Positions 45,640 through 52,541 are shown, counted from the stretch's first letter. The stretch: DNA of 64,000 nt from Halorubrum sp. 48-1-W (GCF_003287355.1 NZ_QMIM01000024.1:1-64000); one strand, 5' to 3'. Notes: generated by a model not told the origin, from the letters alone. Numbers and translations: made by a program.

Positions 45640-45949
45640 TCGTGTCCTTGTCGTCGGCTCCGGACGGCCGGTTCGTCGATAGTCTCCACGCCTCTCCGGT
45701 ACCTATGTATGACCCCCCTACCCGAACGGTTCGGATCCCGAACCGCGTTGATTGACCGATTCAACCGACGGCAGGGGGTGCCTATCGGGCGGTTTTTCGC
45801 CCGGATCCCGTCGTCGGTCGCGTCCGTCGCGATCCGCTACGGGAGTCCCACCGGCGGAGTCGAACCGCCGTCTCGACCGTCCCATCGAGGGAGTTCGAGG
45901 GTGAGGGGGACGGATCCGACCGATCCGGATCCGGTGTCTATGCTTGCGT
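45640..45949. other. Spacer upstream of the signal-peptidase operon
   Basis: 310 bases between vWA protein 1 and the Tat-signal gene. It contains an orphan T-arm-like hairpin (45853-45869), a GGGCGAAAAACCGCCC hairpin near 45790-45805, and a TATA-like CATACATAGG (minus strand, about 45703). The out-of-frame tail of vWA protein 1 runs to 45837. No other gene is supported. Confidence 0.6.
45853..45869 (-). repeat. T-arm-like hairpin, orphan copy
   Basis: On the minus strand GGCGG-TTCGACT-CCGCC, a five-bp stem with a perfect T-loop consensus, followed by GGTGGGA as in the other copies. Here I find no good partner for GGTGGGA upstream, and no start codon lies close downstream. Confidence 0.7.
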
Positions 45950-47507
45950 TCAGCTCTCCGCGTACGGGTTCGTCTCGCCGTCGTTGTGGCGGCACTGTTC
46001 GGCGGCGAATCCGATCGCGAACTCCACGGAGTCGGTCTGGACCTCGTTGCCGACGCCGGTGGGAAGCTCCCACTCGAAGCCGAAGCAGCGAGTTACCGAA
46101 TTCGTGAAGCAGACGCGCTCTTCCGCCTCGAGGTTCGCATCGAGCTCGATTCCGTCCGAGAGCTGGGCCATCACCTCGCTCAGCGTACCTTCCGCGATGA
46201 CCGCCTCGCCTGAGAGGATGACCGAGGAGATCTGTGAGTAGATCGTCTAGTTCCGTCCCGGTCGGCGAATCGTAGTAGAGGACGGTCCCGTTGCTCGAAC
46301 TCGCCATCGATATGAGCGTGTTCTGAGCGGTACTCCCGGAGTTAACTCCCAATCCGATCGTGAACACGGTGATATCGTTGGGAGAGTCCTTTGCATCGTC
46401 CGCCGCGTCGATCGCGTTCTGGACGTGATCGCTTCCTTGTCGGGCAGATCTGGTCGGCTGTCCGTCACCGAGTAGAACGATTACCTGATCGACCCCACGG
46501 TCGTTGCTGGTGAGTTCGTTGGTTGCTCGATCGACGCCATCGTCCATCATGGTCTGTCCGGTAGAGGTGATCCCGAGGTTGCCGGGCTGAAGATAGCCCT
46601 CCACTAACGAGTGATCGGATGTGAGCCCCTGTCGGAGCTGTCCGTTGCTCGCGAACGTTACGAGTCCGACACGATCGTTCGATCCGAGATTGTTGACGAA
46701 CTGTAGCGCGGCCGCCTTCGCCTGCTCCATCTTGCTTCCGGGGCCGTTGCTCATCGACCCGGAGGTGTCGATCGAGAGCATCACGTCGACGCCCTCTCCC
46801 TCCTCGCTGTCGGTCTCAGCCTGATGGATGTTGTCGCAGTTGTCGTCGTACCACACCTTCGCCTGGATCGAGTCAGCGAGCTGGCCGTCTCCGTCGGGGT
46901 CGTCCGTGGCATCTCCCATCTCCTCGAGCGTTTCCTGCTCGGGTTCTGTGTAGCCGTTCTGGTCGTTGCCCGTGAGTGCCCCGCCGATCCACATGTAGCC
47001 GGGGTTGTCGTACAGGTGTGTACTGAACGTGACCTCGCCGTAATCGCCGGGTTTGACGTCTCCGATGCGAATGAGCGCGTTCTCGAGATCGCCCGCATCG
47101 ATCAGCTCGTCGCGCTGGAATCCCTCTCCCTCGCCGGCTTCGGAGTCGTAAATGCCGTTCGCGCCGATGACCCAGTCTTCGGCTCCGGGGTAGTTCTCGC
47201 GGCTCGGGACCTGATCGAGGAGGTAGACGCCGGTGTCGTCGTCGGTCGGTTCCATGTCCTCGTCGACGAACGTGGCGTTCGGGTAGTTCTGTTGGAGCTC
47301 CGCGAGACGACCGGAACCTCCCCGGTACGTCATCCGGTAGTCCATCTTGAGGTCGAGTTCGCCCGCGGTGAGCGTGTTGTCTTCGAACGACTCGTCGTCG
47401 CTGAAGTAGGCGGTCGTGCCGAGTCCCGCCCCCGCGGAGGCCACGCCCACGGCCCCGAGGCCGGCGAGCATCTTCCGCCGCGAGAGTCCTAGTTTGTCGT
47501 CGGTCAT
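45950..47507 (-). pseudogene. vWA-domain secreted protein 1, frameshifted near the C-terminus
   Basis: The frame from ATG 47507 encodes a signal (LSRRKMLAGLGAVGVASAGA, then TTAYFSDDESFEDN), a TasA-like strand region split by a vWA domain with MIDAS motif MLSIDTSGSMSNG, STGQTMMDDGVD and VIVLLGDGQPT. After TGTELDDL (about 46240) this frame turns arginine-rich. The next frame continues YSQISSVILSGEAVIAEG to FAAEQCRHNDGETNPYAES and stops at 45950, matching its paralogues. GATCTACTC in place of GATCTCTACTC, a two-base loss, would explain it. Either a decayed gene, a phase-variable one or a sequencing error. Confidence 0.75.
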
Positions 47508-47530
47508 GATTGGTCCCCCGAAGGGGAACT

Positions 47531-47585
47531 TCCCACCGGCGGGTTCGAACCGCCGTCTCGACCGCCTACGGGGCTTCGAGTGGGA
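47531..47585 (-). promoter_or_regulatory. tRNA-like acceptor/T-arm element before vWA protein 1
   Basis: On the minus strand TCCCACT (47585-47579), a 24-base middle, GGCGG-GTTCGAA-type arm read as GGCGG-TTCGAAC-CCGCC, then GGTGGGA, which pairs with the first segment (six Watson-Crick pairs and one G-U). The ATG is 24 bases further on, preceded by a second small hairpin CCCC-TT-CGGGG. Confidence 0.65.
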
Positions 47586-47626
47586 GGCGGGCAACACGGT
47601 CGTGCTGTCCGCGGTCGGTTGCGTCG

Positions 47627-49426
47627 CTATACGGGTTCTGCGGTCTCGCCGTCGAACGGGTTCGTCTCGCCGTCGTTGTGGCGGCACTGTTCGGCGTGGA
47701 AGTCGATATCGAACTCCACGAGATCCGTCTGAACCTCGTTTCCGACGTCGGCCGGGAGCCACCACTCGAAGCCGACACACCGCGTCAGACCAGGGGGATA
47801 ACACGCCGTACCGTCGACGAATCGATTGGCGTCCAGCGCATATCCTTCCGCGAGCGTCTCAAGCACCTCTCTGAGGGTGCCGTCGGCGATTACCGCCTCT
47901 CCGAAGAGGATTTGTGCGATCTGTGCGAAGATCTGTACCAGTTCGATCTCCTCGGGTGCCTCGAAGAACAGCGTCGGCTGTGTTCCACTGATATCCTCCG
48001 AAGCGATGTCGACGAGCGTCTGCCGTGCGGGAGCCGTGTTCGGGACGCCCTCCAGCCCGAAGCCGATCGCGTAGATAACGACGTCGGTCTCGTCTTTGAT
48101 CTCGTCGGCGACGTCCTCCACGTCGTCCTGTGCGTTCGAGACGCTGACGTCGTCCGCCGCAGCCTCCTTGTCGTAGTCGCTCCACGACTGCCAGGTGGAG
48201 TACGACGGGAAGTCGGAACCGTCCCGGTAGGTCCACGTGGGTGCACCGTCGCCGATGACGAGCATGACCTTCCGACGGCCGGAGTTGCTCGCTTCGAGCA
48301 CCTGCCGACCGCCGTAGAGCCCCGCACCGATGTTCGTCCCGGCTCGGGGAGCGTCGCCGTACTGGTAGGCCTCGATCTGGTCGATGGCACCGTCGATGGT
48401 TGACGTGTTGCTCGCATCCGTGAGCACGAGGAGTTCCTCGTCTATCCCGCCGAACTGGACGATTCCGAGCCTGTCGTCGTCGCCGGATCCGTTCACGTTC
48501 GTTCGAAGGTTGTCAGTGAGGGATTCGATCGCGGATACCGCTTGGTATATCCGCGAGTTCGGACCCTGTCCGTCGCCCACGACGTTGTCCGGGCCCGGAT
48601 CGCCGATCTCGTAGGTCATCGAACCCGAGACGTCGACGACGACCGCGATGTCGACGGGGCCGGATTCTTCGCCCTCCTCGTAGACGTTGTTACAGTTGTC
48701 GTCGTACCAGACGCGAGCGCGGATCGCGTCCGCGAGCTGGCCGCCCCAGTCGCCCTCGACGTTGTAGTAGCGTTCGTCGTCCGCGGCCGCATCCGCGAAG
48801 AACTCGGAGTCGTCGCTTTCGGTTTCCGTGTACCCCGCGTCCTCGAGAGCGGTCCGTTCGGGATCGTTGATCCCGTTCTGCGCGTCACGGGTCAGACTCC
48901 CGCCCATCCACATGTACGCGGGATTGTCGAACAGGTGGAAGCTGATCGTCGCCTCGCCGTAATCTCCAGGCTTCACGTCCTCGAGTTTGAACAGCGGGAA
49001 GCCGGCGTCGGTGAGTTCCTCGCGTTCGAAGCCGCCGAGCTCTCCGTTGGACTCCACCCCGACGTTCGCGGCCTCGATCCACCCGTCCGGCTCCGGGTAG
49101 TCGCTACGCTCCGGCACTTGGTCGAGCACGTAGGTCCCGGACCCCTCGGGGTATTCGGTCACGCTGACGTTCTCGTTGTAGTTCGGGTCGTCGTCGTAGA
49201 CCGCCCGAAGCTCCTCGAGGCGTCCCGGCCCGCCCTCGTACGTGATCCGGTAGTCCATCTTGAGGTCGAGTTCGCCCGCTTCGAGGGAGTTCCCGGTGAA
49301 CCCCTCCTCGTCGCTGAAGTACGCCGTCGTTCCGAGGCCCGCACCCGCGGAGGCGACACCGATCGCTCCGAGGCCGCCGAGTAGCGTCCGGCGTGAGAGG
49401 CCGTTTTCCGTTCTTTTTCGTGTCAT
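47627..49426 (-). CDS. vWA-domain secreted protein 2 with Tat/SipW-type signal
   Basis: A 599-residue exported protein. Signal LSRRTLLGGLGAIGVASAGA then TTAYFSDEEGFTGNS. The TasA-like beta domain (DVKPGDYGEATISFHLFDNP) is followed by a vWA insert of about 280 residues: VVVDVSGSMTYEIGD (MIDAS), RAGTNIGAGLYGGRQ and VMLVIGDGAPTW. The beta domain resumes with FGEAVIADGTLREVLETL and ends FDIDFHAEQCRHNDGETNPF. The MIDAS predicts metal-dependent ligand binding, as in pilus adhesins. It lies between two tRNA-like spacers. Confidence 0.88.
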   Translation of the reverse strand: MTRKRTENGLSRRTLLGGLGAIGVASAGAGLGTTAYFSDEEGFTGNSLEAGELDLKMDYRITYEGGPGRLEELRAVYDDDPNYNENVSVTEYPEGSGTYVLDQVPERSDYPEPDGWIEAANVGVESNGELGGFEREELTDAGFPLFKLEDVKPGDYGEATISFHLFDNPAYMWMGGSLTRDAQNGINDPERTALEDAGYTETESDDSEFFADAAADDERYYNVEGDWGGQLADAIRARVWYDDNCNNVYEEGEESGPVDIAVVVDVSGSMTYEIGDPGPDNVVGDGQGPNSRIYQAVSAIESLTDNLRTNVNGSGDDDRLGIVQFGGIDEELLVLTDASNTSTIDGAIDQIEAYQYGDAPRAGTNIGAGLYGGRQVLEASNSGRRKVMLVIGDGAPTWTYRDGSDFPSYSTWQSWSDYDKEAAADDVSVSNAQDDVEDVADEIKDETDVVIYAIGFGLEGVPNTAPARQTLVDIASEDISGTQPTLFFEAPEEIELVQIFAQIAQILFGEAVIADGTLREVLETLAEGYALDANRFVDGTACYPPGLTRCVGFEWWLPADVGNEVQTDLVEFDIDFHAEQCRHNDGETNPFDGETAEPV

Positions 49427-49462
49427 GAGTGTGCTACCGCGCTTCGTGTGAGCGCGGAGAAA

Positions 49463-49501
49463 TCCCGCCGGCGGAGTCGAACCGCCGTGCTCCGAACGGG
49501 A
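49463..49501 (-). promoter_or_regulatory. tRNA-like acceptor/T-arm element before vWA protein 2
   Basis: Minus strand TCCCGTT (49501-49495), an eight-base linker, GGCGG-TTCGACT-CCGCC, then GGCGGGA. The acceptor-like helix has changed from T-A to C-G at one position relative to its relatives and has two G-U pairs, while the T-arm is intact. A CGCG...CGCG hairpin and the ATG follow within 37 bases. Confidence 0.6.
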
Positions 49502-49502
49502 T

Positions 49503-49520
49503 CCACGCGGATTCGCGTGG
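49503..49520 (-). terminator. Hairpin after vWA protein 3 gene
   Basis: CCACGCG-GATT-CGCGTGG, a perfect 7-bp stem 25 bases after the stop of the upstream gene, without a T-run. It may terminate or stabilise the mRNA end. Confidence 0.4.
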
Positions 49521-49544
49521 GGGGAGTTCACAGATCAGGACGGA

Positions 49545-51062
49545 TCAGGCTGCGAACGGGTTGCCAGGCTCGTCGTTGTGGCGGCACTGTTCGGCGTGGA
49601 AGTCGAACTCGAACTCGACGGAGTCCGTCTGGATCACGTTGCCGACTTCGGTGTCGATGGACCACTCGAACGCGACGCAGTGGGTTCCCGGACGGAAACA
49701 GGCCGCATTGGCGTCTGTGGAGCCGATCAGGGGTGCCGGATCGAGTCGCATCCCTCCGCTCATCTCGTCGCCGAACTCCTCCAAGGTGCCCTCGAAGATG
49801 ACCTCCTCACCGACGATGATCGCCTGGAGGATGTCGTCGTAGATGAGCGGCAGAACCGTGGAGAGGTCGTCCGCCGAGGAGTTGTAGTAGTCGGTTCCGT
49901 CTCCATCGCCGGACGAAGTCGGCGTGTTGCCGGCCATGTCCCTGAGTAGCTGGGGCTCGCCATCTCCGGGCTCGTTGATGTCGATCGTCACGATGCGGGT
50001 GCCCGCGCTCTTCGCGGCGTTCGCCTCGTCCAGTTCGTCGACGTTGCTCTCGAACTGCTCGCCGTCGGTCAGGACGATCATGACCTTCTGCGCGTCCGAT
50101 CGACCGTTCGAAGCGAGGAACGACTGGGCCTCCTGGACCGCGAGCCCCAGCGCGGTGCCGGTGACGTCATCGGGAGCGGCCTGAATGTCGTCGATCGCGT
50201 CCTTCACGTCGCTCTCGACGCCGGACGGGGCGAATTGGACGCCGTCGGCGTAGTCGCTCCCGATGTAGTCCTCGTTTCCGAAGGTCAACACGCCGAGGTG
50301 CGTGTCGGCGGTCTCGTCGAAGACGACCTCACAGAAGCTCTCTGCGGCCTCTCTGGCTTCCGCGAGCTTCGTGGTCTGACCACCCCCTCCGTCGGAGATG
50401 ATGCCGCCGTACTGATCGTACTCCATCGAGCCGGAGATGTCCTGTACGATGAGGATGTCCGTTTTGCCGGCCTCCTCGTCGTAGGTGTTCGAGCAGTCGG
50501 AGTCGTACCACATGCGGACGTCGATGTTCTCGGCGAGTTCACCCTCGCCCTCACCGCCGGTCTCGTCCACGAGCGATTCGGGCTCGTTCAGCCCGTTGTC
50601 GTCGTCGTTGTAGACGCTCCCACGCATCCAGACGTACGCGGGGTTGTCACAGATGTGGAAGGACATCGTGACCTCGCCGTAGTCGCCGGGCTTCACGTCG
50701 TCGAGCTCGAAGATCGGGATCTCGTCGCCGTTGATCAGGCCTTCGGTATCACACGAGAAGCCGAGATCGGCCCGTTGCTCCCAGGTCAGCGGTCCCTCGG
50801 ACGTGTCCTCCCCGTACTGCTCGATGAGTTGTTCGGCCGTGGGACGCTGACCGATGACTTCCGGTCCGTTCGGACCGTCGTAAGTCGCCTTGTAATCCAG
50901 CATGAGGTCCAGCTGGCCGGCCGTCAGGGTGTTCTCGGTGAACCCCTCCTCGTCGCTGAAGTACGCCGTCGTTCCGAGACCCGCGCCGGCGGAGGCCACG
51001 CCGATGGCTCCGAGTCCCGCGAGCATCTTGCGCCGCGAGAGTCCCATTTTCTTGTCTTCCAT
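49545..51062 (-). CDS. vWA-domain secreted protein 3 with Tat/SipW-type signal
   Basis: A 505-residue paralogue of proteins 1 and 2. Signal LSRRKMLAGLGAIGVASAGA then TTAYFSDEEGFTEN; beta domain with DVKPGDYGEVTMSFHICDNP; vWA insert with IVQDISGSMEYDQYGG (MIDAS), DDVTGTALGLAVQEAQ and VMIVLTDGEQFESN. Beta strands resume at GEEVIFEGTLEEFGDEMSGG and the protein ends FEFDFHAEQCRHNDEPGNPF. Its vWA is shorter than in protein 2 and the sequences have diverged, so these are old duplicates. Confidence 0.88.
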   Translation of the reverse strand: MEDKKMGLSRRKMLAGLGAIGVASAGAGLGTTAYFSDEEGFTENTLTAGQLDLMLDYKATYDGPNGPEVIGQRPTAEQLIEQYGEDTSEGPLTWEQRADLGFSCDTEGLINGDEIPIFELDDVKPGDYGEVTMSFHICDNPAYVWMRGSVYNDDDNGLNEPESLVDETGGEGEGELAENIDVRMWYDSDCSNTYDEEAGKTDILIVQDISGSMEYDQYGGIISDGGGGQTTKLAEAREAAESFCEVVFDETADTHLGVLTFGNEDYIGSDYADGVQFAPSGVESDVKDAIDDIQAAPDDVTGTALGLAVQEAQSFLASNGRSDAQKVMIVLTDGEQFESNVDELDEANAAKSAGTRIVTIDINEPGDGEPQLLRDMAGNTPTSSGDGDGTDYYNSSADDLSTVLPLIYDDILQAIIVGEEVIFEGTLEEFGDEMSGGMRLDPAPLIGSTDANAACFRPGTHCVAFEWSIDTEVGNVIQTDSVEFEFDFHAEQCRHNDEPGNPFAA

Positions 51063-51086
51063 GATGTGTCATCCCCATTGGGGAAA

Positions 51087-51143
51087 TCCCACCGACGGAG
51101 TCGAACCGTCGTCCCGGCCGTCCGTTTTCAGAGTCCGGTGGGA
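51087..51143 (-). promoter_or_regulatory. tRNA-like acceptor/T-arm element before vWA protein 3
   Basis: Minus strand TCCCACC (51143-51137), a 26-base middle, GACGG-TTCGACT-CCGTC, then GGTGGGA, which pairs perfectly over seven bases with the first segment. The T-stem has an A-T pair where the relatives have G-C, a compensatory change. A CCCC-AAT-GGGG hairpin and the ATG follow within 25 bases. Confidence 0.7.
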
Positions 51144-51173
51144 CGAGCGAAACGCTCGCTCGTAGTCGTGTGT

Positions 51174-52541
51174 TTATACGTCGATCCGGAAGCCGAGGCC
51201 TTCGCGGTTCGGCGGTGAGCCGGCGGGCCACGACATGGTAACCGTACCGCTAATGACGTCACCCTCGCCGAACGAAACGCCGTTCAGCGTGATGTTCTGT
51301 TGGCCACCCACGTTGCCGTCGACGGAGACGGAGTCGGGGCCGGACGGGGACGTCCTGTTGAGCATGACGTCGTTTACCTCGATGCTCGAATCGGAAGCGG
51401 ATGCCTTCGCCATGACAACGACAGCGTTCGCGGTCGGCAACGGCGCAGGTGCGACGGAGATCTGCGTCCCGTCAATGCTCCACTTGGCGTTGTCGTTCTC
51501 GATGATGAGTTCGAACGGGACGGCTTCGTTGTTGGGCCACGAGACGTTGGTGTCGGGCGTGAGGACCGTGTCGTCAGGCAGTCGGATGTCCATTTCGCGG
51601 TTGGCCGCACCGCCGCCGTCACCGTAGATACCACGAGCGTGCCACACCGTGCCCTCGAGTTCGGGGAAGCCCTCGCCCGCGACGCTCTCGACACACGGGT
51701 TGTTCGTCCCGTCGTTGTGGCGAGCCTGTTCCGCGTAGAACTCGAAGTCGAACGTGACGGAATCGGTCTGGATCTCGTTGCCGACCTCCTCGCCCGGAAC
51801 CTCCCAGGTGAAGCAGACGCACTGATCGGCGATCTGCGGTACGTCGTCGTCGAACGCGGCGTCGACGCCATCGAAGTGCGGGCGGTTCGCGATCGGTGCG
51901 TCGGGGTCGCCGTCACCGGACAGGGGGACGCCGTTGGAAAGCGCGTCCATGACCTCGGCCAGCGAACCGGAGACGATATCATCGCTGACTTCGCCGCTGG
52001 CGTCGCAGTACGACACCGTCACCTGCATCGCGTCGGCGAGCTCGCCGTCGCCGTCGATGTCGTCGGTCGTCTGTTCGTTGTTCTCGTCTCCGGAGTCCGC
52101 TTCCGGCTCCGTGACGGTGTTCTCGTCGTTGGAGGTCAGTTCTCCACACATCCATAGGTACGCGGGGTTGTCGACGATCGAGAAACAGAACTCGCCCTCG
52201 CCGGAGTCGCCGGGTTTCAGGTCCTCGACTTCGATCTGGAGTTCCTCACCCTCTGTCAGCTCGATCCCGTCTTCCTCGACGGTCTGGCCGATAACGCCGC
52301 CTTGGATGTACGTCCCGTCCGGGGTCTGGTAGCTACCGTAGCTGCCCTGGTCCTCGGAGTAGTTCACGTGGACGAAGAGGTCGAGCGAGCCCGCGGTGAG
52401 CGTGTTGTCAGTGAAGCTCTCCTCGTCGCTGAAGTACGCCGTCGTTCCGAGTCCCGCACCCGCGGAGGCGACGCCGATCATGCCGAGGCCGCCGAGCATC
52501 TGCCGCCGCGAGAGTCCGAAGTTGTCGTTGTTGTCGTCCAT
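51174..52541 (-). CDS. Secreted Tat/SipW-type signal protein with C-terminal beta domain
   Basis: A 455-residue exported protein, first gene of the block. Signal LSRRQMLGGLGMIGVASAGA then TTAYFSDEESFTDN; TasA-like domain with DLKPGDSGEGEFCFSIVDNP and QTDSVTFDFEFYAEQARHND, where the cluster cysteine is alanine. There is no vWA; instead residues 290-455 form a beta-rich domain (GTVWHARGIYGDGGGAANRE, VPFELIIENDNAKWSIDG) that may be a carbohydrate-binding-like or filament-contact module. The spacer upstream carries the phased boxes and a large palindrome. Confidence 0.85.
   Translation of the reverse strand: MDDNNDNFGLSRRQMLGGLGMIGVASAGAGLGTTAYFSDEESFTDNTLTAGSLDLFVHVNYSEDQGSYGSYQTPDGTYIQGGVIGQTVEEDGIELTEGEELQIEVEDLKPGDSGEGEFCFSIVDNPAYLWMCGELTSNDENTVTEPEADSGDENNEQTTDDIDGDGELADAMQVTVSYCDASGEVSDDIVSGSLAEVMDALSNGVPLSGDGDPDAPIANRPHFDGVDAAFDDDVPQIADQCVCFTWEVPGEEVGNEIQTDSVTFDFEFYAEQARHNDGTNNPCVESVAGEGFPELEGTVWHARGIYGDGGGAANREMDIRLPDDTVLTPDTNVSWPNNEAVPFELIIENDNAKWSIDGTQISVAPAPLPTANAVVVMAKASASDSSIEVNDVMLNRTSPSGPDSVSVDGNVGGQQNITLNGVSFGEGDVISGTVTMSWPAGSPPNREGLGFRIDV

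Follow-up and report, generated by a model that had tools for sequence, protein, structure and literature searches.

Short tRNA-like elements lie between the secreted-protein genes of a Halorubrum gene cluster, and their structure places them in the same class as the t-element that precedes haloarchaeal 5S rRNA. Based on this likeness, we suggest a model in which t-elements punctuate operons; probably, they are cut out of the polycistronic mRNA, leaving separate, hairpin-fronted mRNAs with short leaders. A sequence-only reading of this DNA had proposed that the mRNA is cut by tRNA-processing enzymes. This proposal is supported because the elements covary in relatives and are placed in operon spacers; cleavage itself is inferred.

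The window is the whole stretch of DNA that was analysed, 64,000 nucleotides of Halorubrum sp. 48-1-W (NZ_QMIM01000024.1:1-64000). On its minus strand lies a cluster of SipW-type secreted-protein genes with the following features, given in the direction of transcription.

51174..52541, minus strand: first cluster gene, with a SipW-type signal and a choice-of-anchor W domain; without a t-element upstream
51144..51162, minus strand: hairpin immediately 5' of element A, CGAGCGA-GCGTT-TCGCTCG; may be where the upstream mRNA ends
51087..51143, minus strand: t-element A, preceding vWA3; acceptor TCCCACC/GGTGGGA (5' strand 51143-51137), D-arm-like part with GG, T-arm GACGG-TTCGACT-CCGTC
51063..51086, minus strand: vWA3 leader, hairpin CCCC-AAT-GGGG; predicted mRNA 5' end 51085, from the 5S boundary
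49545..51062, minus strand: vWA3, SipW-type secreted vWA protein
49503..49520, minus strand: hairpin directly 5' of element B, CCACGCG-AATC-CGCGTGG
49463..49501, minus strand: t-element B, short form, preceding vWA2; acceptor TCCCGTT/GGCGGGA (5' strand 49501-49495), GG linker, T-arm GGCGG-TTCGACT-CCGCC
49427..49462, minus strand: vWA2 leader, hairpin CCGCGCT...AGCGCGG; predicted mRNA 5' end 49461 (presumed cut position)
47627..49426, minus strand: vWA2, SipW-type secreted vWA protein
47531..47585, minus strand: t-element C, preceding vWA1; acceptor TCCCACT/GGTGGGA (5' strand 47585-47579), D-arm-like stem CTCGA/TCGAG with GG, T-arm GGCGG-TTCGAAC-CCGCC
47508..47530, minus strand: vWA1 leader, hairpin GTTCCCC-TTC-GGGGGAC; predicted mRNA 5' end 47529 (presumed cut position)
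45950 (about)..47507, minus strand: vWA1, SipW-type secreted vWA protein; the assembly has a frameshift near 46245
45846..45906, minus strand: t-element D, 3' of vWA1; acceptor CCTCACC (5' strand) paired to GGTGGGA, long D-arm-like part, T-arm GGCGG-TTCGACT-CCGCC; next ATG at a distance of about 205 nt
45639-44869 and 44872-43367, minus strand: further genes after vWA1, then a SipW-like signal peptidase I

Every sequence detail that had been given for the acceptor/T-arm elements before vWA3, vWA2 and vWA1 is present on the minus strand, and folding confirms the second hairpin described before each ATG, with a leader hairpin 3' of all three elements. Element D had been overlooked, and so had what joins the acceptor to the T-arm, a conserved GG or D-arm-like part. 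The core pattern of the elements occurs in four copies in the 3.58 Mb genome, all within the SipW-type cluster, and the reversed control gives 0 matches. For elements A and B, the lowest-energy single-sequence fold differs from the full tRNA-like fold, and the structure of these two therefore rests on covariation and not on energy. Relative to intact homologues in L067 and L068, vWA1 is frameshifted (identity of about 82% and 87%, each in a different frame), reflecting either a real mutation or an assembly error; as sequenced, its reading frame continues through element D.

The elements are not chance matches, as the pattern is far beyond chance. A structural search of 283 kb of loci yielded 42 full elements, whereas five order-1 resamplings yielded 0-2 each. 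Of the 42, 35 stand in front of a gene with an RR-type signal, and a few are genuine tRNAs. A 21-base core is present in 45 of 170 genomes of the family (0 matches in the reversed control), and a 20-base core gave, in a public collection of 84,980 species and among the matches listed, haloarchaeal hits in all cases except three. A covariance model, R1, was built from 18 short forms, all of them mRNA elements, with no 5S sequences. It matches 196 of 391 haloarchaeal genomes and 55 of 84 genera (E up to 0.01), and this genome count, like those of the other large searches, is a lower bound set by strict filters and includes some matches to the 5S rRNA t-element. With these filters, about half of the sampled haloarchaeal genomes have no match, and all matches of a phylum-wide R1 search fall inside the haloarchaeal order. 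Two matches outside the haloarchaea were set aside: one in Promicromonospora (L097) looks like chance, and one in Caulobacter (L161) has no covariance-model match. A third, in Pediococcus (L105), is not a chance match and prompted the viral scan described below. No Rfam 15 family matches the elements at or near its gathering score. No element was called as a tRNA by ARAGORN, and the possibility that the elements are true tRNA genes was rejected, as neither ARAGORN nor a tRNA model finds a complete cloverleaf with an anticodon arm.

The structure is supported by compensatory changes, which show that its base pairs are under selection. It had been noted from the window that bases change while pairing is kept, and a lack of covariation in related genomes had been named as one of two outcomes that would refute the proposal; this outcome is clearly contradicted. 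In relatives, 9 of 11 base pairs carry double changes (112 cells versus 36 after shuffling) in an alignment of 123 distinct rows that was fitted to the structure and whose first members were found by a pattern fixing part of the T-arm. The signal is abolished when the pair partners in this alignment are shifted. In a divergent, hand-picked set aligned by sequence only, 9 of 11 pairs again show double changes (41 cells versus 9), and the acceptor pairs alternate among C-G, G-C, U-A and A-U. The elements thereby combine an acceptor-like stem, a T-stem of 5 bp and a tRNA-type T-loop, all supported by covariation, as haloarchaeal t-elements do. Between acceptor and T-arm, almost every form keeps a GG. 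Short forms have this linker GG 2 or 3 bases past the sixth acceptor base in 104 of 119 cases, and it is invariant in the divergent set; in long forms, GG ends a D-arm-like stem or precedes a hairpin that takes the position of the anticodon arm. By analogy with tRNA, in which G18-G19 are similarly placed, the linker GG would dock on the T-loop. In the leader 3' of the acceptor, a stem-loop with a stem of at least 4 bp is present in 86% of cases versus 44% in shuffled sequences. Upstream hairpins of at least 7 bp are modestly enriched (15% of elements versus 5%); because the enrichment is only modest, such a hairpin was dropped as a defining part of the element and is regarded as optional.

In an unplanned result, R1 also matches elements that abut 5S rRNA, and a single model thus recognises the mRNA elements together with the 5S rRNA t-element. 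In one genus (six genomes), all R1 matches are directly 5' of an Rfam-called 5S rRNA, for instance ACCGATATTGGTATGGCGACGGTTCGATTCCGTCGATCGGAT directly followed by TTAAGGCGG, and 5S rRNA begins 1-3 nt past the acceptor of its t-element. The t-element was described as a structure upstream of the H. volcanii 5S rRNA that is processed by tRNase Z (PMC4326828), and H. volcanii tRNase Z efficiently cleaves pre-5S rRNA in vitro (PMC3296008). A crRNA placed between two t-elements is released in vivo, the enzymes being RNase P and tRNase Z, and the cloning primer for the laboratory t-element is ACCGATATTGGTATGGCAACC (PMC4326828), a sequence nearly that of the 5S elements of the genus mentioned above. 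A second model, R2, built with 5S elements included, detects the 5S t-element in several further families and in the Halorubrum genome, where it is a long form. Because R1 and R2 match both kinds of element and because of the likeness to the primer, we assign the mRNA elements to the t-elements; as judged from sequence and structure, they belong to the same class as the haloarchaeal 5S element. The Halorubrum genome encodes RNase P RNA and a tRNase Z, the latter scoring above the curated cut-off. In a separate haloarchaeal genome (L390, genome G174, C1 1498507-1498738), two t-elements about 190 nt apart precede a 5S rRNA and a 5S-like sequence, which suggests tandem 5S genes with one t-element each.

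The placement of the elements was analysed for all TIGR04088 (SipW-type) genes of eight genomes; the genomes were picked for having elements and the genes were not. A T-arm is present at 29 of 33 genes that follow another gene at a spacing of at least 20 nt, versus 4 of 32 genes that have no upstream gene or overlap it (Fisher p = 5e-10). This is the arrangement of mitochondrial-type punctuation, in which tRNA-like structures lie between the genes of one transcript, the shared transcript being assumed here from gene orientation and spacing. The elements are, then, punctuation within operons and not a promoter-proximal leader. Their distance to the ATG is mostly 17-36 nt. Genes for DUF1102-type surface proteins are also found downstream of such elements. 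Few AT-rich 8-mers occur 5' of the elements, which argues weakly against separate promoters. Because element D is far from an ATG and four SipW-type genes without an upstream gene also bear an element, separating cistrons may not be the only role.

These placement data also bear on two other explanations. In the first, the element is a cis-regulatory leader, the tRNA-like fold binding a protein or ligand, such as a tRNA-binding enzyme, and controlling translation of the downstream gene without being cut. The constant distance to the ATG and the adjacent hairpin would fit such a role, and tRNA-like folds do serve as operators or riboswitches, e.g. yjdF (PMC9142559). However, members of the same gene family that have no gene upstream, or that overlap one, lack the element; unrelated gene families and 5S rRNA are served by it too, and element D is about 205 nt from the next ATG; we therefore consider a leader of this kind unlikely. 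In the second, which we find less likely still, the element chiefly serves the upstream mRNA, whose 3' end would be formed or protected by way of an RNase P cut, and no new downstream 5' end is needed. Element D, which stands at the end of the vWA run and a long way from the next gene, and the slight enrichment of upstream hairpins would agree with this, but the tight spacing to the ATG and the leader hairpin of most elements favour the downstream side, and cleavage of the 5S element is on the 3' side. That the elements are left over from tRNA genes or from attachment sites derived from tRNAs, and multiplied as gene and spacer were duplicated together, we reject as highly improbable: tRNA-like sequences are att sites in haloviruses (PMC8707807) and the flanking genes are paralogues, but both strands of both stems covary across genera, the operon position is constant, and in the Halorubrum genome the core sequence is confined to the cluster and absent from the tRNA genes, including their 3' ends.

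In the punctuation model, an element in a spacer, consisting of an acceptor stem of 5-6 bp, a linker or D-arm-like part with GG, and a T-arm, and lacking a proper anticodon arm, would be recognised in the long transcript. RNase P would cut at the 5' side of the acceptor and tRNase Z, by analogy with the 5S boundary, one base past it. As a consequence, the downstream gene would obtain its own mRNA with a hairpin-fronted leader (for vWA3, vWA2 and vWA1, about 22-35 nt long), and the message 5' of the cut would obtain a defined 3' end and may end in its own hairpin. Such an arrangement could allow neighbouring surface proteins to differ in stability or dose. The analysis demonstrates the structure, the selection on its pairs, the operon position and the class shared with the 5S element; in vivo cleavage, the enzymes, the docking at the elbow and this purpose are inferred.

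The design is overall similar to that of known systems. The 5S rRNA t-element and the mRNA elements share a compact acceptor, a TGG linker and a T-arm, and R1 and R2 match both (PMC4326828, PMC3296008). The ruler from the T-loop to the downstream RNA is the same, and some mRNA elements are long forms with a D-arm-like part, as is the Halorubrum 5S element. Unlike the 5S element, the mRNA elements sit between protein-coding genes, and for them cleavage is presumed. In mitochondria, tRNA structures between genes likewise mark the cut sites of a long RNA; however, mitochondria use real tRNAs, whereas the haloarchaeal elements have no proper anticodon arm and are not tRNA genes. The mascRNA of MALAT1 and menRNA have a reduced tRNA-like fold with acceptor and T-arm and are cut by RNase P and tRNase Z. 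By contrast with the haloarchaeal elements, which match no Rfam family, these RNAs are eukaryotic and form the 3' end of a long non-coding RNA.

A motif search around the sites at which haloarchaeal mRNAs are processed gave no unifying signal, and recognition of structure was suggested instead (PMC8303175). If our model is correct, the elements provide a defined, structure-based signal for mRNA cutting that is conserved class-wide, uses a characterised enzyme pair and has cut positions predictable to the base, and tRNA punctuation extends from mitochondria and rRNA to archaeal mRNA operons. The RNA is of a known kind and its use and scope are new; mRNA-borne examples may already appear in the 2012 work on H. 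volcanii tRNA-like elements. The question is directly testable in Haloferax volcanii. With about even confidence, we speculate that compact t-elements are a general, uncatalogued form of mRNA punctuation that is found in haloarchaeal surface-protein operons class-wide, at near-seamless gene borders in a probable haloarchaeal mobile element, and in phages of lactic acid bacteria and freshwater, and that arose repeatedly or crossed domains.

Further elements were observed in mobile and viral DNA. In L272 (4370-5202, plus strand), three different t-elements separate adjacent small genes of what is probably a haloarchaeal provirus or mobile element. In two of them the first acceptor base falls within the upstream stop codon, and two are followed by the next ATG after 3-4 nt; two of the small L272 proteins have no family match. 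In Pediococcus acidilactici (L105 5154-5196 and 3806-3848, minus strand), two full compact elements are present in a prophage-like region near an integrase gene and genes of repressor type. Each element closely follows a stop codon and precedes the next open reading frame; these elements are not due to chance. A pattern scan of IMG/VR gave 35 contigs, several of which resemble the Pediococcus prophage, with the element just after a stop codon. In many IMG/VR contigs (L279-L311, e.g. L302 515-558, plus strand), the elements have the form GCCCACGCTGGTG...GTGGGC, and 5' of them lies a conserved hairpin with ACTCGGAC as its loop and TTCG/CGAA or TTGG/CCAA as its stem. This leader hairpin is that of one phage group and is common to many of the contigs, and the L279-L311 contigs tested have no Rfam match above the gathering score. 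Finally, in L305 (4585-4622, plus strand), a viral contig possibly from a halovirus, the linker of the element contains the TAA stop codon of the upstream gene.
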